Shown here: piece after piece, positions 13,333 to 31,760 of the stretch
Layout: the number at the start of each line of letters is the position of its first letter
Position numbering within the stretch: the first letter of the stretch is position 1
Source: Methanocalculus chunghsingensis
Lineage (GTDB): Archaea > Halobacteriota > Methanomicrobia > Methanomicrobiales > Methanocorpusculaceae
Length of the DNA stretch: 43,638 nt
Assembly: GCF_018132105.1 (NCBI RefSeq)
Contig: NZ_JWHL01000017.1
Location: forward strand, 1 to 43,638
Direction of reading: 5' to 3'
Notes under the pieces: model-generated
Databases searched by the model: none
What the model was told of the DNA's origin: nothing
Seen by the model: only the letters and a program-made list of their open reading frames with translations
Translations under genes and position numbers: made by a program

Positions 13333-13440
13333 ACAGGCTGGTTTTCGTGGAACCCCGTCTGATAAAATCAAATGTCTTCCTTCCCCCGGATAATCTTTTC
13401 TCTCCGATCCGTTTGTTCAGGGTAGGAAACCTGAACTGCC
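13329..13440 (-). CRISPR. fossil CRISPR leader with one degenerate repeat
   Basis: TTTTCGTGGAACCCC at 13342-13356 is identical to the core of the array repeat, and GTCTGATAA follows where the intact repeat has TTCTGCTAC. The next 75 bp align with the array 1 leader (18283 onward): TCAAAT, TTCC, CGGATAATC against CAGATAACC, CTCCGATCC against ATCCGCTCC, and TCAGGGTA. The leader TATA box (TATATAAACC in array 1) has become AGGAAACC here. The orientation matches array 1. It looks like a dead third locus whose other repeats were lost. Confidence 0.8.
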
Positions 13441-13470: not shown

Positions 13471-13779
13471 TCAGAGGATGACAAACGCCCTCTTCCGGTA
13501 CTCATCTTCATTAAAGGCTTTCCCAACAACAACCTTCTTCGTCAGGCAGGTATCGCAGAGGGTGAAGATCAGGATGCTGTCCGTCTCTGTCCGTTCATCA
13601 GCTGGAAAATCATTGAACAGCTCGGTGATCCGGAGTCCGACCCGTTCAACCTGCCGGGTCGTCAGCTCGCCGAAGAAGATGCTCTTCTGGAACCGGGCAA
13701 GCCCGTGATCCAGGCAGGCATCCGCGATCCGCTGCCGGAGAGGCGTGGAGGTGATGTCATAGAGTACCCAGGCAAACAT
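13471..13779 (-). CDS. cas2: CRISPR integrase subunit Cas2
   Basis: This 102-residue Cas2 has the N-terminal ferredoxin-like strand FAWVLYDIT with the conserved Asp (residue 8). RFQKSIFFGEL follows, and a strand SILIFTLCDTC lies in the C-terminal half. I start it at ATG 13779, which has GAGGG upstream and leaves an 11-base gap after cas1; an ATG at 13800 would overlap cas1. Cas2 forms the core of the Cas1-Cas2 spacer integration complex. No cas4 is visible. Confidence 0.92.
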   Translation of the reverse strand: MFAWVLYDITSTPLRQRIADACLDHGLARFQKSIFFGELTTRQVERVGLRITELFNDFPADERTETDSILIFTLCDTCLTKKVVVGKAFNEDEYRKRAFVIL

Positions 13780-13790
13780 GATGATCCCTC

Positions 13791-14780
13791 TTATGACCAC
13801 TGGCGGGTAAACGGCGTGTAGGGACGTCCTTCGTTGATGCTATGGACTGCCTCACGCATATTGTCGAGGATCACGCTGGAGAAGGTCGTCTCCCTCCCAT
13901 CGATCTCCTGTTCCAGGGTAAGCCTCCCTACAACCTCCGCGATGATCACCTTCCGGGCATCCTGTGTCAGGTATCCCCGTTCATCGCACCCGTCAGATCG
14001 GAGGCGTCCCCGGACCGCGAGCGTAATGATCCCCCGATCAACCACCGGTTGCCGGAACTGCTCAATCACGTCATAGACAAACGGCGTCTTCCCATACCGA
14101 TCCGCATGGAGGATGCCGATACCGGGATCGAGTCCGGCAAGAAGGCAGGACTTCTCCACCTCGTTATAGAGGATCCCATAGCCATAGTTCAGGGCTGCAT
14201 TGAAGACATCCTCGGCAGGCCGGTGCGTCCGGGTTCCATGATAGCTATCCGGCGGGAGGACGTGGGCGAGTGCTTGAAAATACCGCCGCGACGCCTCCCC
14301 TTCAATACCCCGGAGGAGCGGGGCATCATCAGGGAGTATCCCCGATGGCGGCACTCCGGCAGCGGCAACCCGGATCGTCTCCCCTTCCGAGACGAGATCA
14401 GGGCGATCCCGGCGTCTCCCGAGTGCCTGGATGAGCGAGCCCATATTAAAGAGCTTGGCACGGATGATGGATGCGATGAAACTGTACCCCTCCGGACTAC
14501 TGGAGAAGAGCACCTGGTTCTTCCTGGTTGCAGCCGTCCCGGTCACGGAACAGGGGACAAGCCGGCAGACCGGTCTTCCGTCCCGCCCGATGACCGCGAT
14601 GTCGGTACCGTTCCCTGCCGCCAGTGCCATCGCCCCGGTTGTCACCGTTGCCGCATCCGAGAGGAGGATCTGCCGGAGATCAGATGCGGGGAACTCCCGG
14701 ATCTCTCCCTCGGACTCGATGACAAAACGGTTCTGCTTCCGCCGTATAACAGCCCCATATCCGTTAATGACGCAGTACAT
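13791..14780 (-). CDS. cas1: CRISPR integrase Cas1
   Basis: The product is 329 residues if started at ATG 14780 (MYCVINGYG); a TTG three codons earlier is an alternative. The metal-binding residues of the family are visible: Glu in GIEGEA (about 160), His in GILHADRYG (about 225) and acidic residues in YDVIEQFR (Asp 237, Glu 240). Cas1 catalyses insertion of new spacers at the leader end. It is transcribed in the same direction as array 1 and lies beyond its leader-distal end, in an operon with cas2. Direct repeats upstream (14809-14848) may control it. Confidence 0.95.
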   Translation of the reverse strand: MYCVINGYGAVIRRKQNRFVIESEGEIREFPASDLRQILLSDAATVTTGAMALAAGNGTDIAVIGRDGRPVCRLVPCSVTGTAATRKNQVLFSSSPEGYSFIASIIRAKLFNMGSLIQALGRRRDRPDLVSEGETIRVAAAGVPPSGILPDDAPLLRGIEGEASRRYFQALAHVLPPDSYHGTRTHRPAEDVFNAALNYGYGILYNEVEKSCLLAGLDPGIGILHADRYGKTPFVYDVIEQFRQPVVDRGIITLAVRGRLRSDGCDERGYLTQDARKVIIAEVVGRLTLEQEIDGRETTFSSVILDNMREAVHSINEGRPYTPFTRQWS

Positions 14781-14808
14781 CCTACTCAACCACCCGGCAG
14801 ATCGCCTG

Positions 14809-14905: not shown

Positions 14906-17900
14906 GTGGGGAGCCTTGTTTTCGTGGAACCCCTTCTGCTACAAAATTGTATCAAGAATTGAACGATGAAGCTAAAGAGCTTGTTGCAATCCTTGTTTTC
15001 GTGGAACGCCTTCTGCTACGTTGCTTTGCCATTCTAACAAGTCGCGCCAAAAAAAAGTTGCAATCCTTGTTTTCGTGGAACCCCTTCTGCTACTACCTTG
15101 ACACAGAAAACAACCTGACTTGTCCAATTTGTTGCAATCCTTGTTTTCGTGGAACCCCTTCTGCTACCATGGTTCCGGAACCCTATGTTTACGACCAAGG
15201 GTCACGGTTGCAATCCTTGTTTTCGTGGAACCCCTTCTGCTACGACGAGACACCCGCGTACTCTGTCCTATATGCGATGTTGCAATCCTTGTTTTCGTGG
15301 AACCCCTTCTGCTACAGCGAGGAACTCTTCTAATTTTTGGAAGTGAAAAAAATGTTGCAATCCTTGTTTTCGTGGAACCCCTTCTGCTACCACTTGATAC
15401 ACTTCTCCGTGAGTTCAGACCCTGCAGTTGCAATCCTTGTTTTCGTGGAACCCCTTCTGCTACTATACGCACGCACGCACACCCCGGTCTACACGTTGCA
15501 ATCCTTGTTTTCGTGGAACCCCTTCTGCTACGAGGTAGAGCGGGCAGGCAGGCAGGCAGGGCGACAGCGTTGCAATCCTTGTTTTCGTGGAACCCCTTCT
15601 GCTACGACCTAGTCTGCCCCGTATGCGGTAAGACAATACGTTGCAATCCTTGTTTTCGTGGAACCCCTTCTGCTACGCTTGGTACGTCGTCGCGGAGACC
15701 AGTCGGGGCGAAGGTTGCAATCCTTGTTTTCGTGGAACCCCTTCTGCTACGTTAATTTAGTAGGATATACAAGTCACAAAAGGATGTAGTTGCAATCCTT
15801 GTTTTCGTGGAACCCCTTCTGCTACATAAGAAGTTCACTGTATTACTCGAGAAGGAGATCTCCGTTGCAATCCTTGTTTTCGTGGAACCCCTTCTGCTAC
15901 GACCATTAAACGCATATTTCCCACTCCGAACAATTCTTGTTGCAATCCTTGTTTTCGTGGAACCCCTTCTGCTACATGGATGAGGCACACGAATACGAGC
16001 CAATCCAGAAATAGTTGCAATCCTTGTTTTCGTGGAACCCCTTCTGCTACCGATGGAAACTATGATCATCTCCTGAAAACCTGTATGGTTGCAATCCTTG
16101 TTTTCGTGGAACCCCTTCTGCTACAGTATGCGGCAAGACAATACAGGTCGTTAGTACTACGTTGCAATCCTTGTTTTCGTGGAACCCCTTCTGCTACGGG
16201 TATCAGCTAAAAATATCGATTCATTGGTTAACAAGTTGCAATCCTTGTTTTCGTGGAACCCCTTCTGCTACTGAATTATGAAACAGATGGATGAGATTAT
16301 AGAAACTGTAGTTGCAATCCTTGTTTTCGTGGAACCCCTTCTGCTACTCCATAACAACGGAGGGTGGGTATAATGGAGAACCAGTTGCAATCCTTGTTTT
16401 CGTGGAACCCCTTCTGCTACGAGGTTGACCAGAAGGTCGCCGATAAGTCAACTGCATTAGTTGCAATCCTTGTTTTCGTGGAACCCCTTCTGCTACATCT
16501 TCAAATGGTGAAATATTACGCTTCTGGCGTAGTTGCAATCCTTGTTTTCGTGGAACCCCTTCTGCTACGAGTGTCTTGGTATAGACGAAGGCAGAGTTCT
16601 TCATAAACTGTTGCAATCCTTGTTTTCGTGGAACCCCTTCTGCTACGAAAAAGCAATCCTTACATCAGAAGGCACCATCTTGTTGCAATCCTTGTTTTCG
16701 TGGAACCCCTTCTGCTACTGATAAAAAATGGAACCATTAAAAGTAATATTAAAAGAGTTGCAATCCTTGTTTTCGTGGAACCCCTTCTGCTACGCGGGAG
16801 GATGGACAACAATGGAACCATTAAAAGTACTGTTGCAATCCTTGTTTTCGTGGAACCCCTTCTGCTACCGTACAGCCCAGCAGCCACCCATTACCCATAA
16901 CAGAGGTGTTGCAATCCTTGTTTTCGTGGAACCCCTTCTGCTACTTGTAGGAGTCGTAGACCCCTACGGTTTCGCATTCTGTTGCAATCCTTGTTTTCGT
17001 GGAACCCCTTCTGCTACTACCGACCAGCTGCCGGCGTCGGTGAACGTGCCCTGGGTGTTGCAATCCTTGTTTTCGTGGAACCCCTTCTGCTACGATACTC
17101 ATGTCCGATAACATCGAACATAGCTATGACGGTTGCAATCCTTGTTTTCGTGGAACCCCTTCTGCTACGCGGGGCTCCTGCGCCCGTAGTAATTGATCTT
17201 GAGGCTGTTGCAATCCTTGTTTTCGTGGAACCCCTTCTGCTACCAAATCTCAGCGATGCGGATCTCAGCGGTGCAAATCTGTTGCAATCCTTGTTTTCGT
17301 GGAACCCCTTCTGCTACGATTGACCTCCTCCAACCCATTGCCGTCCTCCTCGGCATGTTGCAATCCTTGTTTTCGTGGAACCCCTTCTGCTACACCCCCT
17401 CGCCGGGGTGGTTGCCGGGGGATGCTGAACTGGTTGCAATCCTTGTTTTCGTGGAACCCCTTCTGCTACGTGGATTCAAGGAACCAGAGTCGAACGAATA
17501 CTGTGGTTGCAATCCTTGTTTTCGTGGAACCCCTTCTGCTACATCGGTGAAGGGATGATCACTCTCACCGACGCCCCCGAGTTGCAATCCTTGTTTTCGT
17601 GGAACCCCTTCTGCTACCCCGGGTTGCCTGGTCAGCGCAGTTCGCTGACCAAGGTTGCAATCCTTGTTTTCGTGGAACCCCTTCTGCTACTATCGAACAA
17701 AATAAAACTATGCTCAGAGTATGTCTATGTTGCAATCCTTGTTTTCGTGGAACCCCTTCTGCTACAAGTATGAAGATTTTTTTGAAGTGTTCATTTCTCC
17801 GTTGCAATCCTTGTTTTCGTGGAACCCCTTCTGCTACAATTATCCAATTTGTCCAATTTTCCCCAAAAACCAGTTGCAATCCTTGTTTTCGTGGAACCCC

Positions 17901-18282
17901 TTCTGCTACCGCAATGACAACGGAAGAATTACAGCAGGAGAACGAGTCGTTGCAATCCTTGTTTTCGTGGAACCCCTTCTGCTACCATACACGGAGATGT
18001 GATTTGATGAATTATGATACGGTTGCAATCCTTGTTTTCGTGGAACCCCTTCTGCTACGCGAGATATGGATCTGGCCATCCCAGACCCACATACTGTTGC
18101 AATCCTTGTTTTCGTGGAACCCCTTCTGCTACGCGGTTCATCCCATGATATCATAGGGTGATATGGAGATGTTGCAATCCTTGTTTTCGTGGAACCCCTT
18201 CTGCTACTATATACTCTCGGCGTGGTTCGTTCATGGTTATTAGGTGTTGCAATCCTTGTTTTCGTGGAACCCCTTCTGCTAC
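14906..18282 (-). CRISPR. CRISPR array 1: 46 repeats, 45 spacers
   Basis: The 37-bp repeat begins GTAGCAGAAGG and ends ATTGCAAC when read on the minus strand, the transcribed strand according to the leader at 18283-18455. Spacers are mostly 34-40 nt. All repeats from 14983 on end in C at the spacer junction. The two leader-distal repeats are decayed: 14906-14942 differs in the ATTGCAAC end, and 14983-15019 has a C to G change in the CCCC tract. The final eight bases resemble the AUUGAAAC-type 5' handle of type I-B/III crRNAs. The repeat has no stop codon on either strand in several frames, so long spurious reading frames cross the array. Confidence 0.98.
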
Positions 18283-19737: not shown

Positions 19738-22206
19738 ATGTCAGAAATCAATCGAAATGTTTACCGTTGCATACACCAATCAGGAGATGTGGAGCCTGAT
19801 ATTCAATCACTGGTGTATGCAGCCCTCCTCCATGATATCGGTAAGTTCTACCAGAGGACAGGGGCAAAGCATGCAGAGGAATATGAGGAACTCACGGAGA
19901 AGGATTATGGATACAGCGGAGCCCATGCCAAATGGTCGGCTGACCTGATCCGAAGAGTGTTTCATGATAAACAGCTTGAAGACCTCGTTCTTCATCACCA
20001 TCAACCGCAGGCCTCGGCATATCGGAACCTTGCAGAGATCCTCCAGGAGGCAGATCATATCTCTGCCGCCATCGACCGGAGCAGGCGGGATGAGAAGGGT
20101 GATCCAAAGAGAGAGCATCTCTGGAGTATATTCTCCGGGATATCTCTTGGTGGAACTCAGCAGGAGGTGAACGGATCAGACTGGCATCACAGGCTTCTTC
20201 CATTCACCCTCACCAGGGAGGCGTTCCCGACCAGGGAACAGGATCCATACCACTGGAAGAACGATGTTCCGTACTCCCGGCTCTGGGCAGAGTTTTATCG
20301 TGAGCTCTCAGAGGCAGGGAGGAGGCCGCACCCGACGACCCTCCTCGCACTCCTCCGTAAGTATACCTCATCGATCCCCTCGGCAGCGTATGTCGATTAC
20401 CCGGACATTCCCCTCTATGATCATGCGAAGACGACGGCGGCACTCGCCACCTGCATCGCCGCCGGTGAGGGAAAATCACCGTACCTGCTTGTACAGGGCG
20501 ATCTCTCCGGCATCCAGCGGTTCATCTTCGATGTCAGGACCCCGGAGGCGGCACGGAAAGGGATGGCAAAGCGGCTCCGGGGGCGATCATTTTGGATCTC
20601 TCTCCTGGCCGATGCGATCGTCCATGAGATCATCGAGGCGGCCGGGGTATCTGAAGCGAATATCCTCTGGAACACCGGTGGAAACTTCCTCCTCCTCCTC
20701 CCAGGGAACAGCCGGGTGGAGGAGGCGATTGGCCGGGTCCGGAGAAGTGTCAATACCGGCCTCCTCCGGGAGACCGACGGGCGGCTCTACTGTGCATTCG
20801 GGAGCCTTGCCTGCAACCGGGGTGAGATCGAGGACTTTGCAGACTGCCTTGAGCGGCTGCACCTCATCACCGGTCGGCAGAAGCTCAGGAAGTTCTCTGA
20901 ATGCCGGATCAGCAGCACCCCCACCGGGGAAGAGACCGATCTCGAGGGCTTCTGCCCCATCTGCGAACACCGCAAAAGTGCGGGGATCTGTCCCACCTGT
21001 ACGATGCATGAAGAGCTTGGCCAGCGGCTTGCCCATGCATCCTGTTTCAGCAGGGGAAGTGGCCTCCGGTTCGGCTTTGCGGAGTTTGGCCTCTTGGCAC
21101 GGTATGATCTCACCGAGAAGCCGTTTGCAGAACCCCCGGAGTTCACCGCCACCATAAACAGTACCGACTTCCTCAGGACCGGGTCACCGGCGATGAGCTT
21201 CATCCTCCTTGGGAATACGGTTCCGCTGCACAAGAGGCGGATCCTGACCTTCGGGGAGCTTGCAGAGGTCTCGCAGGGGGATCCGAAGCTTGGTATCCTG
21301 AAAGCGGATGTCGATAATCTCGGCAAGATCTTTGCTCTTGGAATCGGGGAGAGGAAGAAGCGGTCGATATCGCGTATCTATACCCTCTCCTCAGGGTTTG
21401 AGCACTTCTTCAGCGGGTACCTCAATACCCTCTGCCGGACGTTTGGGATCTATACCCATCTCTGCGAAGAATGCAGAAACGGTGCCCGCGAGATCTCCCT
21501 CCACCATGATGAGCGGGAGAGGGAGGACGACGAGGCCGTCCGGACGAGCTGGACCGCCTATGAAAAAGAGACCGCATGCCCCTCATGCGAACACCACTTC
21601 GTCCCGACCCTCTACATCACCTTCTCGGGGGGGGACGATCTCCTGATCATCGGCCCCTATGACCATATCATCAGGTTTGCCGGACTCCTCCAGTCGGAGT
21701 TTGAAGCATATACCTGCAACAACCCCTGGATATCACTCTCTGCCGGGGTGGTCGCAGTGCCGCCAAGGATGCCGCTTGCCCATGCAGTGGCGATGGCAGA
21801 AGATCATCTTGAGGAGGCGAAACGACAGGGGAAGAGCCGGGTAGCCATCTTCGGCGAATGCCTCCCATGGAAGGACAGAACCCTTGAGAAGGGATATGCC
21901 TCCCTCCTCAGCCAGGGGGAGGCGCTTGAGGCCGCCCTCACCGGGAAGGCAGTCAGCCGGAGCTTCATCCATGCCACCCATGCCATCTGGGAGGATGCAT
22001 TCGCCGATCTCGATGATATTGATGATGTCTTGGAGAAGGCGGCGAAACGGGAGGCACGGCGACGGTATCTCCCGTACCTGAAGTACCAGATCGCACGCAA
22101 TGTACCGAAGAATGAGAAGAAACGGATCGAGGATCTCATCCTTCCCTCCTTTGGCTGGGCGAGGTTTCCGATCACATGGACAGTTATGAGAACCAGGAGG
22201 AAGTAG
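19738..22206 (+). CDS. cas10: type III-A Cas10/Csm1
   Basis: This 822-residue protein is the large subunit of the Csm complex. The N-terminal HD nuclease motif is LLHDIGKFYQR (His-Asp at residues 32-33). Zinc-binding cysteines appear in CPICEHRKSAGICPTC (about 406-421), with more in CEECRNG and CPSCEHH. The palm cyclase motif SGGDDLL (GGDD at about 631-634) is intact. By family knowledge the HD domain cuts single-stranded DNA, and the palm makes cyclic oligoadenylate when target RNA is bound. The downstream CARF proteins fit the use of that signal. csm2 starts immediately after the stop codon. Confidence 0.96.
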   Translation: MSEINRNVYRCIHQSGDVEPDIQSLVYAALLHDIGKFYQRTGAKHAEEYEELTEKDYGYSGAHAKWSADLIRRVFHDKQLEDLVLHHHQPQASAYRNLAEILQEADHISAAIDRSRRDEKGDPKREHLWSIFSGISLGGTQQEVNGSDWHHRLLPFTLTREAFPTREQDPYHWKNDVPYSRLWAEFYRELSEAGRRPHPTTLLALLRKYTSSIPSAAYVDYPDIPLYDHAKTTAALATCIAAGEGKSPYLLVQGDLSGIQRFIFDVRTPEAARKGMAKRLRGRSFWISLLADAIVHEIIEAAGVSEANILWNTGGNFLLLLPGNSRVEEAIGRVRRSVNTGLLRETDGRLYCAFGSLACNRGEIEDFADCLERLHLITGRQKLRKFSECRISSTPTGEETDLEGFCPICEHRKSAGICPTCTMHEELGQRLAHASCFSRGSGLRFGFAEFGLLARYDLTEKPFAEPPEFTATINSTDFLRTGSPAMSFILLGNTVPLHKRRILTFGELAEVSQGDPKLGILKADVDNLGKIFALGIGERKKRSISRIYTLSSGFEHFFSGYLNTLCRTFGIYTHLCEECRNGAREISLHHDEREREDDEAVRTSWTAYEKETACPSCEHHFVPTLYITFSGGDDLLIIGPYDHIIRFAGLLQSEFEAYTCNNPWISLSAGVVAVPPRMPLAHAVAMAEDHLEEAKRQGKSRVAIFGECLPWKDRTLEKGYASLLSQGEALEAALTGKAVSRSFIHATHAIWEDAFADLDDIDDVLEKAAKREARRRYLPYLKYQIARNVPKNEKKRIEDLILPSFGWARFPITWTVMRTRRK

Positions 22207-22686
22207 ATGTCATATAATAATTTGTATGGTAAGGGCCAGGGTCAGAACCGCGGGGGATCATACGCCGGCGGTGGAAGTCAGGAGTTTATAAAGAAGATAC
22301 AGGAAGCCAGAAACCTCTCGGGTATCACCGTCGAGGAGGTCGCCCGGGAGGATGGGATCGCCGAGTCGGCTGCAAAGGCGTTTGGAAAGAACCTCAAGAC
22401 GACACAGCTGAGGAAGTTCTTCGATCAGGCAAAGTCGATCGAGGCGGGGCTGAAAGAGGACGGATGGGAGTCGGTGAGTGCGGATTTTGCAATGCTCCGG
22501 CCGATCCTCGCCTATGCGAAAGGGAGGAGGCTGATCCCGGATGACTTCTATCTCTTCATCTCATCCTGCATGGCAAAGGTCCTTGCACCGGATAACGACA
22601 TGGAGATGACGAAGAAGAACTACATCAGGTTCATCCAGATCCTCGAGTCAGTGGTGGCGTACCACAAATATCACTATGGAGAATAG
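22207..22686 (+). CDS. csm2: Csm2 small subunit
   Basis: The 159-residue product has a Gly/Asn/Gln-rich N-terminal tail followed by a helical bundle (TTQLRKFFDQAKSIEAG, then LRPILAYAKGRRLIPDDFYL and a final YIRFIQILESVVAYHKYHYG). The layout is as expected for Csm2, which lines the crRNA-target duplex. The ATG directly follows the cas10 TAG, so translation is probably coupled. It is slightly longer than usual because of the tail. Confidence 0.93.
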   Translation: MSYNNLYGKGQGQNRGGSYAGGGSQEFIKKIQEARNLSGITVEEVAREDGIAESAAKAFGKNLKTTQLRKFFDQAKSIEAGLKEDGWESVSADFAMLRPILAYAKGRRLIPDDFYLFISSCMAKVLAPDNDMEMTKKNYIRFIQILESVVAYHKYHYGE

Positions 22687-22697
22687 GAGCGAGAGAT

Positions 22698-23432
22698 ATG
22701 ATAGAATTCATCGAAAATTACCGTATATCAGGAAAGATCATCTGCCAGACCGGTCTGCATATCGGGGGCTCATCAGATACACTCGGAATCGGGGGATCGG
22801 ACAGCCCCGTCATCCTTGACCGCATACAGAAGGTCCCGATCATCCCCGGCTCATCCCTGAAAGGGAAGATGCGATCAGCACTTGAGCTGAAGTATTCAGG
22901 CCTCTGGCTTGACAAGAGTGAGGGAAAGGTCCATACCTGCAAAGAACCCGGCTGCAACCTCTGTACAACGTTTGGCCGTGGCGCAACAGAGCGGGTCATG
23001 GCCGGCCCGACCCGCCTGATCGTCAGGGATGCGATGCCGGATGCAGTGACGAAGGAGGCCTGGAAGGACAAGGACGGCATCTCCCATGGGACCGAGATCA
23101 AGGGGGAGAACTTCCTCAACCGGATCACCTCCATGGCGACGCCCCGGTTCATCGAGCGTGTCCCCGCAGGCTCCGCCTTTGACTTTGAGATGATCTTTAC
23201 CATCTACTCTCCCGAGGATCAGGACCGGCTGAAGCTGGTGCTTGAGGCGATGAGCATCCTCGAGGACAGCTATCTTGGCGGGAGCGGATCGAGGGGCTAC
23301 GGAAAGATCGCCTTTGCCGATATCGTGATTGCACGGAAGGATCCGGATTCGTACCGTGAGGGGAGAGACTGGGAGCCGCTGACGAAGGCCGAGGGGGAGA
23401 CGACGGCACGCGGAATCCTCGCATCCCTCTGA
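22698..23432 (+). CDS. csm3: Csm3 backbone RNase
   Basis: This 244-residue RAMP protein has HIGGSSDTLGIGGSDSPVI near the N terminus. The Asp at residue 35 corresponds to the catalytic Asp33 of Streptococcus thermophilus Csm3, so backbone RNA cleavage at 6-nt intervals is expected. PGSSLKGKMR at 50-59 and the glycine-rich loop GGSGSRGYGK near 194-203 are family features. CKEPGCNLC (about 75-83) may bind zinc. It lies 11 bases after csm2. Confidence 0.96.
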   Translation: MIEFIENYRISGKIICQTGLHIGGSSDTLGIGGSDSPVILDRIQKVPIIPGSSLKGKMRSALELKYSGLWLDKSEGKVHTCKEPGCNLCTTFGRGATERVMAGPTRLIVRDAMPDAVTKEAWKDKDGISHGTEIKGENFLNRITSMATPRFIERVPAGSAFDFEMIFTIYSPEDQDRLKLVLEAMSILEDSYLGGSGSRGYGKIAFADIVIARKDPDSYREGRDWEPLTKAEGETTARGILASL

Positions 23433-23448
23433 TATATGGAGCCGGGAT

Positions 23449-24390
23449 ATGCGTACCGTTTACATAACACCCACCTCGGCCTTTCCCCGGACGCTGCCGT
23501 CAAATACGCTCTTTGGGGCGATCTGCTCGGCGATGGCGGAGCTTGGGGGGCCGGTCGGGGATCTGGTCGCCGCATTTGAAGAGGATCCCCCGTTCCTCCT
23601 CACATCGGCGTTCCCCTGGTTTGGGGAGGAGGAGAAGGTGCATCTCCTCCCTGCCCCGATCCTCCCTCCGGAGAAACTCCCCGGAGAAGCACTCTTTGAT
23701 GCCGCAAAGAAGCTCAGGAAGGTCTCGTACCTCCAGAGCGGGATATTTGCCTCGCTGGTTGAGGGGCGGCTCTCAGATGACGAGATACTCCGGGATCTGG
23801 ACCGGGGCGACGGGAAGTACCGGATCGGATCGGGGATGCTGTACGAGAAGAAGCAGGATCACCACTTTGAGATCAGCCGATCCGAGATCCCGCATAACCG
23901 GATCAACCGCCTCTCGGTCGCCTCCGAAGCCTTCTTCGCATCGGAAGGATTCAGGTTCTCCAATGCAGGATTATACTTCCTGATCGACTTCAAAGAGAAG
24001 GCATGGGAGAATGAGGTGCTGGCGGCACTCCGTCTCCTTGCAGACCGGGGTTTTGGTCCCAAAGTCTCAAGCGGCCAGGGCGCCTGCTCCATCTCCTTTG
24101 GAGATACCGATATCCTCCCCACATCTACGGGAGAGCGGATCGTCACCCTCTCCCGCTATCTCCCCGACGACTTCGATCTTCTCGGCGAGGATGCCTTCTA
24201 CAACCTCGTCAGGATCCGGGGGAGGAGTGCCGACGGCGTGATGAAACGGTCGGTGATGATGCTCGGTGAAGGGTCGGTCTTCCCTGATACCGGGGACGAT
24301 GTGTACGGCGGGATCGCCCGTGTCCGGGACGATCCCCCGGTCGTTGAGTACGGGTATGCCTTCCCGATCCGTTTCAGGAGTGCAGCATGA
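23449..24390 (+). CDS. csm4: Csm4 (crRNA handle-binding RAMP)
   Basis: This 313-residue RAMP protein starts with an N-terminal strand MRTVYITPTSAFPRTLPSNT and the LFGAICSAMAELGG helix. It has a glycine-rich loop DRGFGPKVSSGQGACSISFG at about 200-219. Csm4 caps the complex, binds the 5' crRNA handle and contacts Cas10. Its last four bases (ATGA) overlap the start of csm5, which shows tight translational coupling. Confidence 0.92.
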   Translation: MRTVYITPTSAFPRTLPSNTLFGAICSAMAELGGPVGDLVAAFEEDPPFLLTSAFPWFGEEEKVHLLPAPILPPEKLPGEALFDAAKKLRKVSYLQSGIFASLVEGRLSDDEILRDLDRGDGKYRIGSGMLYEKKQDHHFEISRSEIPHNRINRLSVASEAFFASEGFRFSNAGLYFLIDFKEKAWENEVLAALRLLADRGFGPKVSSGQGACSISFGDTDILPTSTGERIVTLSRYLPDDFDLLGEDAFYNLVRIRGRSADGVMKRSVMMLGEGSVFPDTGDDVYGGIARVRDDPPVVEYGYAFPIRFRSAA

Positions 24391-25547
24391 GGGTTGAGCT
24401 GAAGACAGTAACACCGGTCCATGTCGGATCCGGTGGAAAGTACGGAGGAGCCGAGATATTCAGGGTGAGGGAAGGGTATGCCCGGACCGGGATTCGTGAT
24501 GTCGTCTCCCTCCTTGAGGGCAGGGCGTATGAGGACTTCCTCTATGAAGTGGAAGAGCCGGGGTTCTCGCTTCAGAAGTTTATGGAGCGGCATCCGCTCT
24601 CGCCACCGGCGCGATATACCCTGAAATCATCCATTCCACATCCGCCAGGTGAGGTTCGGGAGATCATCAGAACCGGATTTGATATCCCGTACATCCCGGG
24701 ATCGACGGTGAAAGGGGCGATCCGGACGGCATTGCTATGGAAGGCATGCAGGGATGACCCCTCGTTCCCCCCGGAACGGCTCTATTCCCGTAATAAACGG
24801 ATGATAGGGAAGGAAATCTTCGAGGGGATCCTCTCAACAAACAGCAGAAGGTACGATCCCAAGTATGATCTCCTCCGGTTCCTTGAGGTCTCGGATTTCA
24901 TGCCGGTGAAACATTTCCTCTATCTGGAAGAGTTCGGGACGTACTCCATGTCACGGAACGGCATTATGGCGCCCAAACCATTCACCATCCCCTGTGAGAC
25001 CCTCTTTGCCCGCCTGGAGGGAACGATCCGGCTCTCCCCGGAGATCGAGGCGGCGGCAGGCCACCGGGATCTCTCGCTGCTTGAAGGCAAGCTCCCGCTG
25101 CTTGGGCTGAAAAAGAGCGATATCAGGGGACTCTCCGATCCGTTGGTCCTGCAGGCGGCAGAAGAGAAGATGACCGCACATCTCCGCTCGGTGATGCGGC
25201 AGTTCATCGAGGCGGCACTCCTCCATGATCTCCGTCTTGTGAGCGGTTCGGGAGCCCCTTCGCCACTGAGTACCGAGATCCAGACGATGCAGAAGAAGCA
25301 TGCCGGGATGGATCTCCTTCGGGTCGGGTTTTCTATCGGGACGACCTACCAGACAGTGATGGATCTCATCGAGGAGAAGGATCCCGATCTCGCATCGGCG
25401 ATAATTACGGATATGAAACTGGGAAGATATCCCCGCTCATATGACGGGGAAGCACTGGATCCCCCGTATCCAAAGAGTATTGAGTTTATTCGGACGAATG
25501 GAGAACTGCTGATGCCGGGGTGGGTGGAATGGTTACCCTCTTCATGA
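24387..25547 (+). CDS. csm5: Csm5 (3' end RAMP)
   Basis: The 386-residue product opens with LKTVTPVHVGSGGKYGG and has PGSTVKGAIR at about 104-113, both characteristic of Csm5. Csm5 caps the 3' end of the complex and takes part in crRNA trimming. It overlaps csm4 by four bases, and the following CARF-HEPN gene by 19. Confidence 0.94.
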   Translation: MRVELKTVTPVHVGSGGKYGGAEIFRVREGYARTGIRDVVSLLEGRAYEDFLYEVEEPGFSLQKFMERHPLSPPARYTLKSSIPHPPGEVREIIRTGFDIPYIPGSTVKGAIRTALLWKACRDDPSFPPERLYSRNKRMIGKEIFEGILSTNSRRYDPKYDLLRFLEVSDFMPVKHFLYLEEFGTYSMSRNGIMAPKPFTIPCETLFARLEGTIRLSPEIEAAAGHRDLSLLEGKLPLLGLKKSDIRGLSDPLVLQAAEEKMTAHLRSVMRQFIEAALLHDLRLVSGSGAPSPLSTEIQTMQKKHAGMDLLRVGFSIGTTYQTVMDLIEEKDPDLASAIITDMKLGRYPRSYDGEALDPPYPKSIEFIRTNGELLMPGWVEWLPSS

Positions 25548-26731
25548 CCGTCGGTACCGGCTCAGGCCCGGACAGAGAGGAGCGGATGCGCAACCTCGCC
25601 CATGGCCTCGCCCATGGGATCCACTATCACCGGCCGGAAGAGGTCATCTTCTTCGGGTCTGCCGAGAGCGAACCGATGGTTCCTCTCATCCGTGACTGCC
25701 TGAAGATCAATCGAGGGATGGATCTCCCCCCGGTCACCTGGATTCAGCTTCGGAATATCGACTCCTTCTCCGACTGCTTTGAGCAGATCAGCGACGAGAT
25801 CAAAAGAAGGCCGGATGAGGATATCAGGATCGATTATACCTCCGGGACCAAGACGATGACGATGTCGGCGGCGATCGCCTCGATGCTCCACAGGAAGGAG
25901 CTGACGGTCATCAGTGGGCGACGGGGAGAGAACGGGCTCGTCGGCCAGGGTACCGAGACGATAACCCAGCAGTCACTCTATCTTGCCTATAACGATATCC
26001 TCCGTGAGACGGCAAATGCAGAGTTCAATGCCTACCGGTTTGAGTCCGCAAAGGCAACAATGAGGAAGATGGTTGCAGTCGATGACAAAAACCACCTCAT
26101 GCAGATCTTTGATGCTTACAGCCTCTGGGATCGCTTTGATCATAAGGGGGCTGCCGGTATCCTTGCAGGGAGCTCCGACACCCGGTTTTCAGTGAATAAG
26201 GGTTTTATCAAGCAACTGGTCGAAACAGACGGGCTTCCATATAAATACAGGATGATCCTTGCGGACCTCCTGAATAATGCAGGCCGCAGGATTGAAGAAG
26301 GGAAGTACGATGATGCAACCGGCCGCCTGTACCGGGCCGTGGAGCTGATCACCCAGATCCGCCTCCTCGAGTACGATCTCGATGATATCAATGGGTCGAT
26401 CCGGCTTGAGAAGCTGAAGGGGAAGGTGGATCGCGAGTATTTTGCCTACTGCGAACCGAAGGCAGATGGTGAGAGGAGGCTCAGGATCGGTGTCCGGGAG
26501 AAGTTCCATCTCCTCCAGGCCCTCGGATGGACACGGGCACGAACCTGTTATGAAGCTCTCGCAGACGATCTCCAGCAGCGGAACAGCTCCATCCTCGCTC
26601 ATGGGATGACCCCTGTCACAAGGGAGAGTGCCATGACGTTTTATGGGAAGGTTCATGATCTCGCACTCCAGGCATGTGGTCCAAATGAGATGGAGCCGCT
26701 CCTCAAACGAGCAGTATTTACGAAATTATGA
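25529..26731 (+). CDS. CARF-HEPN ribonuclease of the Cas02710/Csm6-like family
   Basis: I place the start at ATG 25529 (MVTLFMTVGTGSG); GTG 25520 and ATG 25544 are alternatives. The N-terminal CARF domain has the strand-loop TVGTGSGPD and the ligand-pocket motif DYTSGTKTMTMSA (about 111-123). The C-terminal part carries the HEPN signature R-X6-H in QRNSSILAHG (Arg about 351, His about 358). CARF binds cyclic oligoadenylate from Cas10, and HEPN cuts RNA non-specifically, so this would be the accessory effector of the system. Its ATGA overlap with cas6 and overlap with csm5 place it inside the main operon. The family name rests on motif layout; a related Csx-type is possible. Confidence 0.85.
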   Translation: MVTLFMTVGTGSGPDREERMRNLAHGLAHGIHYHRPEEVIFFGSAESEPMVPLIRDCLKINRGMDLPPVTWIQLRNIDSFSDCFEQISDEIKRRPDEDIRIDYTSGTKTMTMSAAIASMLHRKELTVISGRRGENGLVGQGTETITQQSLYLAYNDILRETANAEFNAYRFESAKATMRKMVAVDDKNHLMQIFDAYSLWDRFDHKGAAGILAGSSDTRFSVNKGFIKQLVETDGLPYKYRMILADLLNNAGRRIEEGKYDDATGRLYRAVELITQIRLLEYDLDDINGSIRLEKLKGKVDREYFAYCEPKADGERRLRIGVREKFHLLQALGWTRARTCYEALADDLQQRNSSILAHGMTPVTRESAMTFYGKVHDLALQACGPNEMEPLLKRAVFTKL

Positions 26732-27399
26732 CACACAGAACTCTCTACCTGGTTATGGAGACGGATCGGCCTGTCACCGAAAGCGGAACACAGCTCCGGG
26801 GATGTATCGCCGGGCAGTATCCGGATCGCCCCCTCCTGCACCATCATGCCCCCCAGCTTATCTATACCTACCCCCGGGTACAGTACCGGGTGATCGAAGG
26901 GACGCCGTCTGTCCTTGGGATCGATGACGGGGCAGACGAGCTCCGTGCCATCGTCGGGGATCTGCATGAGCTGACACTTGGGAACAGCCGGTACCGGATT
27001 ACCCGGAAGGCGACCTATGAGATGGAGGGGGCTATCCGCCCGATCCGTGATCTCCGGTCGTACCGGTTTACCAGCCCCTGGATCGCCCTCAGCACAAAAA
27101 ATTATGAGATCTACCAGAATGCCGGGGGCTGGCGCGAGAGGAAGGAACTGCTCAACAGGATCCTGATCGGTAATATCCTCTCGATGGCGAAAGGGCTTGA
27201 TATTGTCATCTCACGGGAGATCCGGGTCAGAACACATCTTGATCCGGTGGCAGTCCGGTATAAAGGCATCGGGATGACCGGGTTCACCGGGGAGTTCCAG
27301 ACGAATGTTATCATCCCGGAGTTCTTTGCACTCGGAAAAGGGGTATCTCAGGGGTTTGGCACCGTCATCCCCGATCGGTCTGCCTCCCCAGAAGGATAG
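26728..27399 (+). CDS. cas6: Cas6 crRNA endonuclease (Cas6b type)
   Basis: The 223-residue product has an N-terminal LRGCIAGQYPDRPLLHHHAP with a YPRVQYRVI strand, as in Cas6b, and a C-terminal glycine-rich loop FALGKGVSQGFGTV. HHH near residue 37-39 may include the general base. Cas6 cuts the repeat to release crRNAs with an 8-nt handle and would serve both arrays, since their repeats are the same. It overlaps the preceding gene by ATGA, and converges on the CARF gene with a 35-bp overlap of coding ends. Confidence 0.9.
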   Translation: MTHRTLYLVMETDRPVTESGTQLRGCIAGQYPDRPLLHHHAPQLIYTYPRVQYRVIEGTPSVLGIDDGADELRAIVGDLHELTLGNSRYRITRKATYEMEGAIRPIRDLRSYRFTSPWIALSTKNYEIYQNAGGWRERKELLNRILIGNILSMAKGLDIVISREIRVRTHLDPVAVRYKGIGMTGFTGEFQTNVIIPEFFALGKGVSQGFGTVIPDRSASPEG

Positions 27400-28141
27400 A
27401 GAGGAACTTCTCCCCATACGGGGTGAGAACGGATCCGCCCCCTGTCTTCTTCTCAAGTACCCCGTGCCGGATGAGGAGGGCTTCGTCCTGGGGGGCGAGC
27501 CGCTCACCGCTCCCGAGGCATGCCCTGATGAGGTAGCCGATATGATCTGCGGGGAAGGGGAGCGTCGGTATCCTGATGATCTCATAGCCTGTCCGGGGCG
27601 GGAAGAGGATCCGATCGAATTCCTCACGATGCTCTTCATAGAGGGCGAATCCCTCCTCCCGTGACTCGATATCCGCAAACCGGTTGATCTCACCCCGGTA
27701 CCGCTCAAGGAGTTCGTTCATATATCTGATATCAGGATTGACGACCGAGAATACGCCGTCTGCTCCGAGGATCTGCCCAAGGAGTGTCAGGACAACGGAC
27801 ATATTCTTCCTCCCGCCGGTGATGTTGAGGTAGATGGTATCACACTGGTGGGTGTCACGCTCCTCCCGGAAGGCCCGTGTCGCTTCAGACATGAACCGGA
27901 GCGTATCATCCTGGGTGGCGACATCGTCAAAGGGGAGGATGACCGGGTGGATCCGGAGCCAGGGATATCTGAGGGAGAGACCTGCATCCAGGAACCGGGT
28001 TCCGGCGAGGACATCGCGATCCCGGGTGACAAGAAGGACAACATCGGATATCGGCTCCCCGATACCGTCTATAAATGAGCTGACGGCAGGGGGGCTCATT
28101 CCGACCGGGGCAATAACTGCGGTCTTCATAATGCTCTGCAT
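27365..28141 (-). CDS. second CARF-domain protein (Csx/ring nuclease or regulator)
   Basis: The start at ATG 28141 (MQSIMKTAVIAPVG) has GGTGGAGAG upstream; 28129 and 28192 are alternatives. The 258-residue product has a CARF fold: IAPVGMSPPAVSSFIDG at the N terminus, the strand VVLLVTRDRDV, and the pocket motif YLNITGGRKNMSVVLTLLGQ near 125-144. The C-terminal 80 residues end in a helix-turn-helix-like segment (DEALLIRHGVLEKKTGGGSV). No HEPN R-X4-6-H motif or PD-ExK motif is evident. It may degrade cyclic oligoadenylate (ring nuclease) or act as a signal-dependent transcription factor. It lies between cas6 and array 2, transcribed away from the array 2 leader. Confidence 0.8.
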   Translation of the reverse strand: MQSIMKTAVIAPVGMSPPAVSSFIDGIGEPISDVVLLVTRDRDVLAGTRFLDAGLSLRYPWLRIHPVILPFDDVATQDDTLRFMSEATRAFREERDTHQCDTIYLNITGGRKNMSVVLTLLGQILGADGVFSVVNPDIRYMNELLERYRGEINRFADIESREEGFALYEEHREEFDRILFPPRTGYEIIRIPTLPFPADHIGYLIRACLGSGERLAPQDEALLIRHGVLEKKTGGGSVLTPYGEKFLSILLGRQTDRG

Positions 28142-28269
28142 CAGTCTCTCCACCTCAATCCTTTTGAATATTACCAAAGGACCGCCTCTCATCTTGCTCC
28201 CTCCCGAGGCGGAGAGATGGATGTGGGGATGGGGGAGGGGATGATATGGAAAACTACGGAATGGGTATG

Positions 28270-28441
28270 AAAACCTCGGAGATTTGATTTAAACCGATTA
28301 AATTGAAAAATAATAGCAAAATGAGTTTGAAATTTTGCAAAAATGCGGAAAAGGTGATCGGAGGGGGTCGTCCGGTTTATATACCCTGACAAAAAGGAGC
28401 GAATAGAAAGGGTTATCTGGGAAAAGAAACAAATTTGACCC
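28270..28441 (+). promoter_or_regulatory. leader and promoter of CRISPR array 2
   Basis: These 172 bp are nearly identical to the array 1 leader in reverse orientation. The TATA box TTTATATA at 28376-28383 predicts transcription starting near 28407, about 35 bases before the first repeat. The homology ends at AAAACCTCGG near 28270, close to the start of the divergent CARF gene. Confidence 0.88.
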
Positions 28442-30930
28442 GTAGCAGAAGGGGTTCCACGAAAACAAGGATTGCAATTCCATCTCCCAGCTGTCCCATG
28501 CGGTGATTGTGGTGTAGCAGAAGGGGTTCCACGAAAACAAGGATTGCAATCGCACATCTCCGTCTACACTCTTCACACTCAGAAAAATGTAGCAGAAGGG
28601 GTTCCACGAAAACAAGGATTGCAATACCCAGCCGGGAGGCTGTCCTGAGTGATCGACTTCACCCTGTCTGGTAGCAGAAGGGGTTCCACGAAAACAAGGA
28701 TTGCAATTCCCGCGAGTGATCTCCGCGAGAAGTAACGCGGTAACGGTAGCAGAAGGGGTTCCACGAAAACAAGGATTGCAATCCTCTGAAGAGGCGAATT
28801 GCCTGAGATCCATATATCGTAGCAGAAGGGGTTCCACGAAAACAAGGATTGCAATGGGTTCGGGTGTGTTCTGATCTGTCGCTCTCCGGCAGTGTAGCAG
28901 AAGGGGTTCCACGAAAACAAGGATTGCAATGCGAATTGCCTGAGATCCATAGATCTTCTCCTATACAGTAGCAGAAGGGGTTCCACGAAAACAAGGATTG
29001 CAATATATTGGTTATGTCTTTTATGCAATGCGTTAAGATACCGTAGCAGAAGGGGTTCCACGAAAACAAGGATTGCAATAGTTTCTTCTCCGGCGATCCT
29101 CATCATTGTTTCTAAGTAGCAGAAGGGGTTCCACGAAAACAAGGATTGCAAGGAAGTATTCTTGATGTATATCCTTTCAGTTGTTGTGTAGCAGAAGGGG
29201 TTCCACGAAAACAAGGATTGCAAGTCTACATGCGGGCCACCAATACCCAAAACTAAGGTATAGTAGCAGAAGGGGTTCCACGAAAACAAGGATTGCAAGA
29301 TATGGAAAGCCACTTTAACGAGTGGCTAAAAATGATGTAGCAGAAGGGGTTCCACGAAAACAAGGATTGCAAGAGTAAGGAGTACGCCGTATTAGCGTTC
29401 CTCTCATGGCAGTAGCAGAAGGGGTTCCACGAAAACAAGGATTGCAAGTTTTATACATAATTCAACTAATGAAGAGATTGTTCCATGTAGCAGAAGGGGT
29501 TCCACGAAAACAAGGATTGCAAGACGCTGAACGTTGCCCTAAGGGCGTACCGATCAGAGGTAGCAGAAGGGGTTCCACGAAAACAAGGATTGCAAGTCGA
29601 TCGATTGGTTGTCCATTTTTTTCACCTCATGGTGTAGCAGAAGGGGTTCCACGAAAACAAGGATTGCAAGGGGTATGGTTTGGCATGTAGACAAGACGGG
29701 TAGCGCAGTAGCAGAAGGGGTTCCACGAAAACAAGGATTGCAAGGCTTTCCCCTCATCATTTTTAAATTCGTATGTATCATGTAGCAGAAGGGGTTCCAC
29801 GAAAACAAGGATTGCAAGTAGACACGAAGGTTAGCGCAGTGGCGTTAGCCGTAGCGTAGCAGAAGGGGTTCCACGAAAACAAGGATTGCAAGTCCATGGC
29901 TCCCGGTGGTACGTCGCCACTCGTAACCTTGTAGCAGAAGGGGTTCCACGAAAACAAGGATTGCAAGGAAGAGGGGGGCAAATATCCCCTCAACTTCCAA
30001 CTATGTAGCAGAAGGGGTTCCACGAAAACAAGGATTGCAAGAGAGGTCAATAGAGTGGATTAAATCTGCAAGAGACACCGTAGCAGAAGGGGTTCCACGA
30101 AAACAAGGATTGCAAGAGGGCTTTTGCTCTGCATGTCTGCCCACCCGCTCTGTAGCAGAAGGGGTTCCACGAAAACAAGGATTGCAAAGAAGGTATCGTA
30201 AAGAGGATGAAGCCAAGAGAGGTGTAGCAGAAGGGGTTCCACGAAAACAAGGATTGCAAAACGGCTGACTTGTCAGCCCTCCTGTCTGGGGACGTACGTA
30301 GCAGAAGGGGTTCCACGAAAACAAGGATTGCAAACTGTGAGGTTTTCATCCTCAAAGATTGCGTTTCTCGTAGCAGAAGGGGTTCCACGAAAACAAGGAT
30401 TGCAACCGAACACTGTTCGCTATACAGAAGTTCAGGTTCGGTTGGTGTAGCAGAAGGGGTTCCACGAAAACAAGGATTGCAACTTTTCAATCTCCATGAA
30501 CAACCCATCCGAAACCTCGTAATGTAGCAGAAGGGGTTCCACGAAAACAAGGATTGCAACCCTGATAGGTTATTTGTTCGATAAATTCCGATTCTGATGT
30601 AGCAGAAGGGGTTCCACGAAAACAAGGATTGCAACACCCCCATCACCTTCAAACTTGCTGCGACCGAGAGCCCCGTAGCAGAAGGGGTTCCACGAAAACA
30701 AGGATTGCAACCATCTTCTCGATATTCGTATGTCTTATCATAAGATGCTGTAGCAGAAGGGGTTCCACGAAAACAAGGATTGCAACATGTGCCGGAGAGC
30801 GGAATTCTCATTCGAGAGCCACGTAGCAGAAGGGGTTCCACGAAAACAAGGATTGCAACCCCTATAGTGTGTCTTTTTCATGTGTCGTTCCTCTGAGTAG
30901 CAGAAGTACTTCCACGAAAAGGATTACAAT
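28442..30930 (+). CRISPR. CRISPR array 2: 33 intact repeats plus one decayed repeat
   Basis: The repeat is the same 36-bp core as in array 1 (GTAGCAGAAGG to ATTGCAA), followed by a variable 37th base. Repeats 1-9 end in T, 10-23 in G, 24-26 in A and 27-33 in C. The first repeat is 28442-28477 and the last intact one 30823-30858. The 34th, at 30897-30930, has TACT in place of the GGGT tract and lacks two bases. Spacers are mainly 36-39 nt, with one of 46 (28625-28670). Transcription is rightward from the leader at 28270-28441. Confidence 0.98.
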
Positions 30931-31005: not shown

Positions 31006-31358
31006 TATACAGGAAGGATTGTATCAGGATCCATCATTCTCCTCCACCATCCTCCTGCTTCCTACCCTCACGACGCTACCCTGAGTTTCCTCCGTCCCCA
31101 GGTGTACATCCCCCTCCCCCATTCCTCCCTCATAAAGGCACAGATCTGTCTTAATCGACTAATATAAGACGATTCTATAAATATATTATTTTATATATCT
31201 AAATGTTATTATTTATTTTAAAGACAGGGGGTCTCCGAATTAAAAAACAAAGAATAATCTCTCCTATTTCAAATTCAAGCCCAAAGTGTACGATATTGTT
31301 ATGGTCTCTGAGGCTATGTAATCCCCATCCCCATCTATGGGATGGGGGGGTGAAAACT
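31006..31358. other. region without recognised gene; AT-rich promoter segment
   Basis: The first part is CT-rich with no convincing reading frame. From about 31160 the sequence becomes very AT-rich (TATAAATATATTATTTTATA at 31176), which is a likely promoter for the Gln-rich gene at 31359. The in-frame extension of that gene upstream of 31359 has a different composition and is not counted as coding. Confidence 0.45.
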
Positions 31359-31760
31359 ATGGTATCTGAAGAAAAGCAGCAGCAGAGTGAACAGCAGGAG
31401 CAGCAGAAGCAAAAGCAGGCTGCCCAGCAACAGCAGCAGGGACAACAGACCCAGCAGGCTGGTCAACAGCAGGCTGCCCAGCAACAGAGTGAACAGCAGA
31501 AGCAGCAGGAGGCTCAGCAGCAGGCAGCCAAACTCCAGGAACAGACGAAGTTCCATGAGCAGGCAAAGCAGCATCATGAGCAGAAAGGCCAGCAGGCTCA
31601 GCAGGGACAACAGGCTCAGCAGGCTGGTCAACAACAGGAGCAGCAGAAGCAACAACAGGCTGCCCAGCAACAACAGGCTGCCCAGCAACAGCAGAGTGAA
31701 CAGCAGAAGAAAGCACAGCAGGCTGCCCAACAGGCTGCACAACAACAGCAGAAGAAATAA
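31359..31760 (+). CDS. glutamine-rich low-complexity protein (133 aa)
   Basis: The ATG at 31359 follows GGGGGGGTG. After MVSEEK almost the whole product consists of Gln with Ala, Lys, Glu and some Gly and Ser. Units such as QQAAQQQQ, GQQAQQAG and SEQQKQQ recur, and only one short stretch (AKLQEQTKFHEQAKQHHEQK) is more varied. It has no membrane span. Heptad-like spacing of Ala suggests a helix or coiled coil, or it may be disordered and assembling. The DNA is a CAG/CAA/GCC repeat mosaic prone to length change. Function is unknown; it converges on the CsbD gene. Confidence 0.75.
   Translation: MVSEEKQQQSEQQEQQKQKQAAQQQQQGQQTQQAGQQQAAQQQSEQQKQQEAQQQAAKLQEQTKFHEQAKQHHEQKGQQAQQGQQAQQAGQQQEQQKQQQAAQQQQAAQQQQSEQQKKAQQAAQQAAQQQQKK

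Follow-up and report, generated by a model that had tools for sequence, protein, structure and literature searches.

In a type III-A CRISPR array of Methanocalculus chunghsingensis, the last base of an otherwise constant repeat changes along the array in four pure blocks, and in a survey of 136 arrays, mostly archaeal, inherited repeat changes concentrate at this single position and arise at the time of spacer integration. These observations suggest that the terminal base is occasionally rewritten when a new spacer is inserted and is then copied into all later repeats.

Terminal-base blocks in a type III-A locus

The window, a stretch of 43,638 nucleotides, belongs to a 2.13 Mb genome in 51 contigs (family Methanocorpusculaceae) and carries a standard type III-A CRISPR system with two arrays of the same repeat. 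Cas10/Csm1 and csm2–csm5 are all matched above the curated cut-offs, and cas1, cas2 and cas6 are located near the arrays, with cas1 and cas2 beyond array 1. The cas1 of the window shares 71% identity with its counterpart in Methanocorpusculaceae archaeon UBA456, and the sole match in a cas1 scan of genome contigs was a same-genus relative. The locus is composed of the following elements:

13471–13800, minus strand: cas2 (PF09827, E 7e-14)
13791–14789, minus strand: cas1 (PF01867, E 4e-66)
14906–18282, minus strand: array 1, 46 copies of the 37-nt repeat of array 2, terminal base C throughout
19738–22206, plus strand: cas10/csm1, type III-A (TIGR02578, E 1.5e-161)
22207–25547, plus strand: csm2, csm3, csm4 and csm5 (TIGR01870, TIGR02582, TIGR01903, TIGR01899)
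25520–26731, plus strand: csm6-like CARF-HEPN protein (TIGR02710)
26728–27399, plus strand: cas6b (PF17262, E 2e-39), expected to cut 8 nt before the spacer
27365–28192, minus strand: csx14/CARF protein with a weak Crn1 ring-nuclease match
28270–28441, plus strand: leader of array 2, which matches the array 1 leader minus the final T at the leader/repeat junction

Array 2 consists of 33 exact copies of a 36-nt core, GTAGCAGAAGGGGTTCCACGAAAACAAGGATTGCAA, on the plus strand from 28442 to 30858. The base that follows the core reads, from leader to trailer, T9 G14 A3 C7, exactly as described in an earlier note on this DNA:

28442–29079, plus strand: repeats 1–9 (newest), terminal base T
29080–29115, plus strand: spacer 9, boundary spacer at the G-to-T change, 36 nt visible
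29116–30116, plus strand: repeats 10–23, terminal base G
30117–30151, plus strand: spacer 23, boundary spacer at the A-to-G change, 35 nt visible
30152–30334, plus strand: repeats 24–26, terminal base A
30335–30369, plus strand: spacer 26, boundary spacer at the C-to-A change, 35 nt visible
30370–30859, plus strand: repeats 27–33 (oldest), terminal base C, the ancestral state
30897–30929, plus strand: degenerate trailer repeat closing array 2

The exact probability of four runs in 33 positions is 2.6e-15; adjoining repeats share the terminal base in 29 of 32 cases, a figure that none of 200,000 shuffles came near. The leader lies on the side of repeat 1, where the note had placed it: about 160 nt upstream match the region upstream of array 1, and the degenerate repeat is at the other end. 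The variant repeats are contiguous and ordered from the leader, which is the pattern of leader-proximal copying.

Array 1, read on the minus strand from 18282 down to 14906, has C after 46 of 46 repeats, including the two degenerate oldest ones, which bears out the note's statement that its terminal base is always C. Two arrays of 8 and 6 repeats in a same-genus relative (G003), with related repeats and leaders, also carry a terminal C throughout, and a search of the organism's own genome for further copies of the repeat found none beyond the two arrays. The first visible spacer base, just after position 37, is mixed, as expected of a spacer base, and is not shared between neighbours. Because the blocks are pure, C is constant in array 1 and in the G003 arrays, and the next base is mixed, the terminal base is the 37th base of the repeat, copied at each integration, and C is ancestral. 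The 36-bp core described earlier is indeed constant, but the repeat is 37 nt long once its terminal base is counted, and the last one ends at 30859. The note had also held that the base is not taken from each spacer but is inherited by copying of the leader-proximal repeat, that C is the oldest state and that the blocks form an internal time ladder; the data agree on all three points, the blocks giving the relative order of events. In the 8-nt crRNA handle ATTGCAAN, the terminal base would occupy position -1, which fits predicted Cas6 processing.

Several other features of the window were observed. Spacer 3 of array 2 (28625–28670) is 45 nt long, where most spacers of this array have 35–40 nt. 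Spacers 5 and 7 have about 25 nt in common (GCGAATTGCCTGAGATCCATA) at different offsets and appear to derive from overlapping sites of related targets; in array 1, a similar stretch is common to spacers 29 and 36, and TTTTAATGGTTCCATT to spacers 20 and 21. Array 2 is immediately followed by a 185-codon open frame (31203–31760) that has many CAG/glutamine repeats and no Pfam match. Just past cas2, a lone degenerate repeat, CAGACGGGGTTCCACGAAAACCAG, preceded by the leader-like sequence AGAGAAAAGATTATCCGGGGGAAGGAAGACATTTGA, is found on the minus strand at 13338–13420 and probably remains from a third array that collapsed. Beside an Orc1/Cdc6 gene (1677–2816), a 94-nt unit occurs three times in tandem (1324–1605), a possible replication-origin repeat.

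Position of inherited changes across arrays

Were the blocks due to substitutions in the leader-proximal repeat, inherited changes would be spread over the repeat; all three in array 2 fall at one of 37 positions. We surveyed arrays adjoining cas1 in archaea of the same phylum, oriented by a TTGAAA-type 3' end, with comparison genomes taken one per species. An inherited interior change was defined by runs of at least 3 on both sides and at least 4 older repeats. The main set comprised 117 arrays with at least 8 repeats, and 20 further arrays from plasmids and viral contigs (859 repeats; 19 arrays with at least 8 repeats) formed a follow-up set. The combined survey covered 136 arrays and 6,532 repeats.

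In the main set, the terminal base accounted for 15 inherited interior changes, spread over 9 arrays, and the remaining positions together for 4; for lone interior changes, the corresponding counts were 4 and 57. The 20 follow-up arrays contained no interior terminal events and two events at another position. For the combined 136 arrays, the inherited changes are therefore 15 at the terminal base (9 arrays) versus 6 at the other positions together (5 arrays), and the lone, uninherited changes are 4 versus 64 (Fisher p = 4e-9; 1.6e-7 without the window). When runs of at least 5 were required, there were 6 terminal events and 6 elsewhere, yet this sets one column against about thirty.

Because repeats spend most of their life in the interior of an array, lone changes should far outnumber inherited ones under substitution; exposure counting under ordinary mutation gives about 35 lone interior changes for each inherited one, or about 36 in the main set alone. 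At the terminal base, 0.11 inherited changes would be expected from the lone ones and 15 were seen, whereas at the other positions the 4 seen in the main set are in rough agreement with the 1.6 expected. Two of the four lone terminal changes, both in L097, look like artefacts of offset duplicated units. Given this excess of inherited over lone changes, the change arises during integration: inherited terminal-base changes are tied to integration rather than to ordinary mutation. The terminal events all come from 9 arrays and therefore do not reflect a uniform property.

Blocks at the terminal base also occur independently in a different family, in an array with the repeat GTTACAGACGAACGCTAGAGCGGTTGAAG+N (L099, genome G383), in which 17 repeats read AAAAAGGGGTTTTCCCC, forming four blocks with all four bases. 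Three other arrays read C30 T34 C16 (L109), G18 T17 C1 (L134) and G34 C7 G3 (L112). At the trailer end, the oldest repeat and the one next to it often have unlike terminal bases: of the 26 trailers with a single difference, 10 have it exactly there, as would be expected if the same event sometimes occurred at the first integration. In the older half of another array (L088, 5158–9266), the terminal base shifts often (T16 G4 C12 G CC G C14 G T CCC T), which would fit frequent early slips and rare later ones; one spacer at this locus resembles another CRISPR repeat.

Origin of the new terminal base

The explanation towards which we lean, with modest confidence, is that the repeat is occasionally duplicated one base short, so that the first base of the new spacer is captured as position 37 and later inherited. 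During integration, one strand is nicked at the leader/repeat junction and the other at the repeat/spacer junction. Normally, Cas1-Cas2 copies all 37 nt of the leader-proximal repeat, and the new repeat keeps the old terminal base, as the blocks and the constancy of array 1 show. Occasionally, the spacer-side cut would fall one base early and only 36 nt would be duplicated; the older repeat would retain its own base, while position 37 of the new leader-proximal repeat would be taken by the first base of the new spacer. Accurate later duplications would copy this base, and a block would begin. Array 2 would record three visible events of this kind (C to A, A to G and G to T), and roughly one slip in four would be silent. 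The captured base would become the last base of the 8-nt handle, yielding a handle with an inherited foreign letter. As this mechanism predicts, the changes are seen at the spacer-side end of the repeat, are inherited and start at one spacer; we infer that the new terminal base originates from that spacer.

A candidate cause of lower precision in array 2 is found in its leader. The leaders of arrays 1 and 2 are nearly identical, but the sequence before GTAGC ends in GACCCT in array 1 and both G003 arrays and in GACCC in array 2. The missing junction T is a single case, and a simple leader-anchored ruler would move the cut in the opposite direction.

Duplication one base short predicts that boundary spacers should be visibly shorter by 1 nt. 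Compared with their own arrays, boundary spacers are short by a mean of 0.77 nt (n = 26, p = 0.006). The difference is -0.59 nt (p = 0.028) without the window and -0.40 nt (p = 0.11) for internal events only, again without the window. These values are to be read with the knowledge that the three short boundary spacers of the window helped suggest the length idea, that an earlier test on 24 boundaries including singletons gave no significance and that significance appeared only after the analysis was confined to clean blocks and extended to more arrays, which is a forking path. The shortness of boundary spacers is thus supportive of one-base-short duplication, not decisive.

Protospacers of boundary spacers were sought in several collections. 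An IMG/VR search with 18–19-mers of spacers 9, 23 and 26 returned no protospacer, its single match (L032) fitting 25 of 37 positions; among phages and plasmids, the only strong match to a boundary spacer, in Halobacterium sp. DL1, was the array of origin; and in 391 genomes one 97% chromosomal match was found, to a boundary spacer of L099, with the first two bases not covered. An additional search with boundary spacers found nothing within 3 mismatches, and IMG/VR, phages, plasmids and the 391 genomes yielded no true protospacer for any array 2 spacer. This outcome counts against capture, as do the weak length signal outside the window, the follow-up set devoid of terminal events, the confinement of events to 9 arrays and the equal counts at runs of at least 5. 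No plus-one slips or shared first spacer bases were found in the arrays; the matching plus-one slip leaves no trace, which likewise speaks against the mechanism. An IS200/IS605 tnpA in the same-genus genome G006 (PF01797, in L022) matches spacer 10 of array 2 (29152–29187) at 81%, and G005 has a second, weaker match (L028); the target of this spacer is probably an insertion sequence. The tnpA homologue carries C where the block base is G, which is in line with a repeat-derived terminal base, although 81% identity is too distant for proof.

Four other explanations have to be weighed. The terminal base might be miscopied rather than captured, the last base laid down in gap filling and ligation beside the new spacer being error-prone and then inherited. 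This would account for the same position and the same timing with no shift in spacer length, and the length effect is modest; however, boundary spacers tend to be short, which miscopying does not predict, and we regard it as unlikely, though worth keeping in view. The changes reach all four bases without a transition bias (7 transitions, 9 transversions), but lone core changes are similarly unbiased, so the ratio is uninformative.

Ordinary substitutions in the leader-proximal repeat, inherited by later repeats, were the rare substitutions of the earlier note; they would be visible at the last base alone if other positions are constrained. Copying of neighbouring repeats is established (PMC2886076), and position 37 may be the least constrained. 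The survey nevertheless speaks against this part of the note: inherited and lone changes stand at 15 to 4 at the terminal base despite some 35-fold more interior opportunity, compared with 6 to 64 at other positions, and two of those four lone changes are the probable L097 artefacts. We consider this explanation rather improbable.

We give still less credence to recombination, in which the blocks would be segments joined from arrays or strains with different fixed terminal bases, or an array that collapsed and was refilled. Array collapse and refilling have been described (reviewed in PMC8047081), and recombination could also yield reversions such as the C-T-C order in L109. Segment exchange is suggested by three arrays of one Halorussus plasmid (L193, at 43, 10746 and 15342), in which T/C variants at repeat position -21 occur in blocks and are shared between arrays. 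On the other hand, neither G003 nor the rest of this genome has an array ending in T, G or A, any donors with other terminal bases must themselves have undergone the change, and why the last base alone differs is left unexplained.

Finally, the terminal base could be part of each spacer, with an acquisition preference that shifted over time; in E. coli type I-E, Goren reportedly found in 2012 (cited in PMC4081107) that the incoming spacer supplies the last repeat base. For array 2 such a reading is very improbable, since the base forms four pure blocks without exception in 33 repeats and stays C through all 46 repeats of array 1, served by the same cas1, since the visible spacers start with mixed bases that neighbours do not share, and since remote target homologues of spacers 1 and 10 lack the block base (weak evidence, at 72–81% identity). 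The E. coli duplicon, in which the terminal base should differ from spacer to spacer or be that of a PAM, was accordingly rejected as a description of these arrays.

Relation to known systems and significance

One-base-short duplication shares with the E. coli type I-E duplicon a last repeat base that would come from the incoming spacer. In E. coli, however, the spacer provides it at every integration, whereas here it would normally be copied and only rarely replaced, which leads to blocks. Molecular-ruler control of second-site integration is said to have been described by Wang in 2016 in Haloarcula hispanica. Laboratory work offers a precedent for the proposed slip: single-base indels placed upstream of the ruler element of the repeat shift the second integration site by one base in S. 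thermophilus (PMC6895254), and rulers have been described for types I-E and I-B, as cited there. A one-base shift of the spacer-side cut that alters the repeat length by one base is common to both settings, but the ruler experiments showed it with engineered repeats and laboratory acquisition, whereas here we infer it from natural arrays with unaltered cores.

Degenerate trailer repeats are well known (PMC4466440, PMC8047081) and likewise show an altered 3' end in the oldest repeat. In contrast, the repeats described here are interior and intact and differ in the last base only, in inherited blocks. Also related to array 2 are the runs of repeat variants in E. coli and Salmonella, which Touchon and Rocha 2010 (PMC2886076) attributed to copying of adjacent repeats, variant runs being taken, as here, as proof of neighbour copying; unlike the present analysis, the sections of that paper considered here report no concentration at the terminal base and no link to integration errors. 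Such a concentration of inherited changes was not found in the literature searched, coverage of which was partial. That repeats copy their leader-side neighbour was already known in 2010; what the earlier note had not seen is the concentration of inherited changes at the terminal base.

More broadly, the spacer-side end of the repeat may be a leaky boundary in some archaeal arrays, where short duplication lets a foreign base be captured into the repeat and the handle and then propagated, a proposition for which we find the case evenly balanced. If it is true, terminal-base blocks would be a fossil count of integration slips, readable across thousands of genomes, and 'slip-prone' arrays would have to be explained by their leader or repeat sequence. 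Genome sequences would already record the natural precision with which Cas1-Cas2 measures the repeat, without acquisition experiments, and strict repeat duplication and the spacer-derived last base of E. coli would be two ends of one scale. Arrays would also gain internal relative time marks, and natural crRNA handles with all four spacer-adjacent bases would become usable for tests of how strict type III handle recognition and self/non-self discrimination are.
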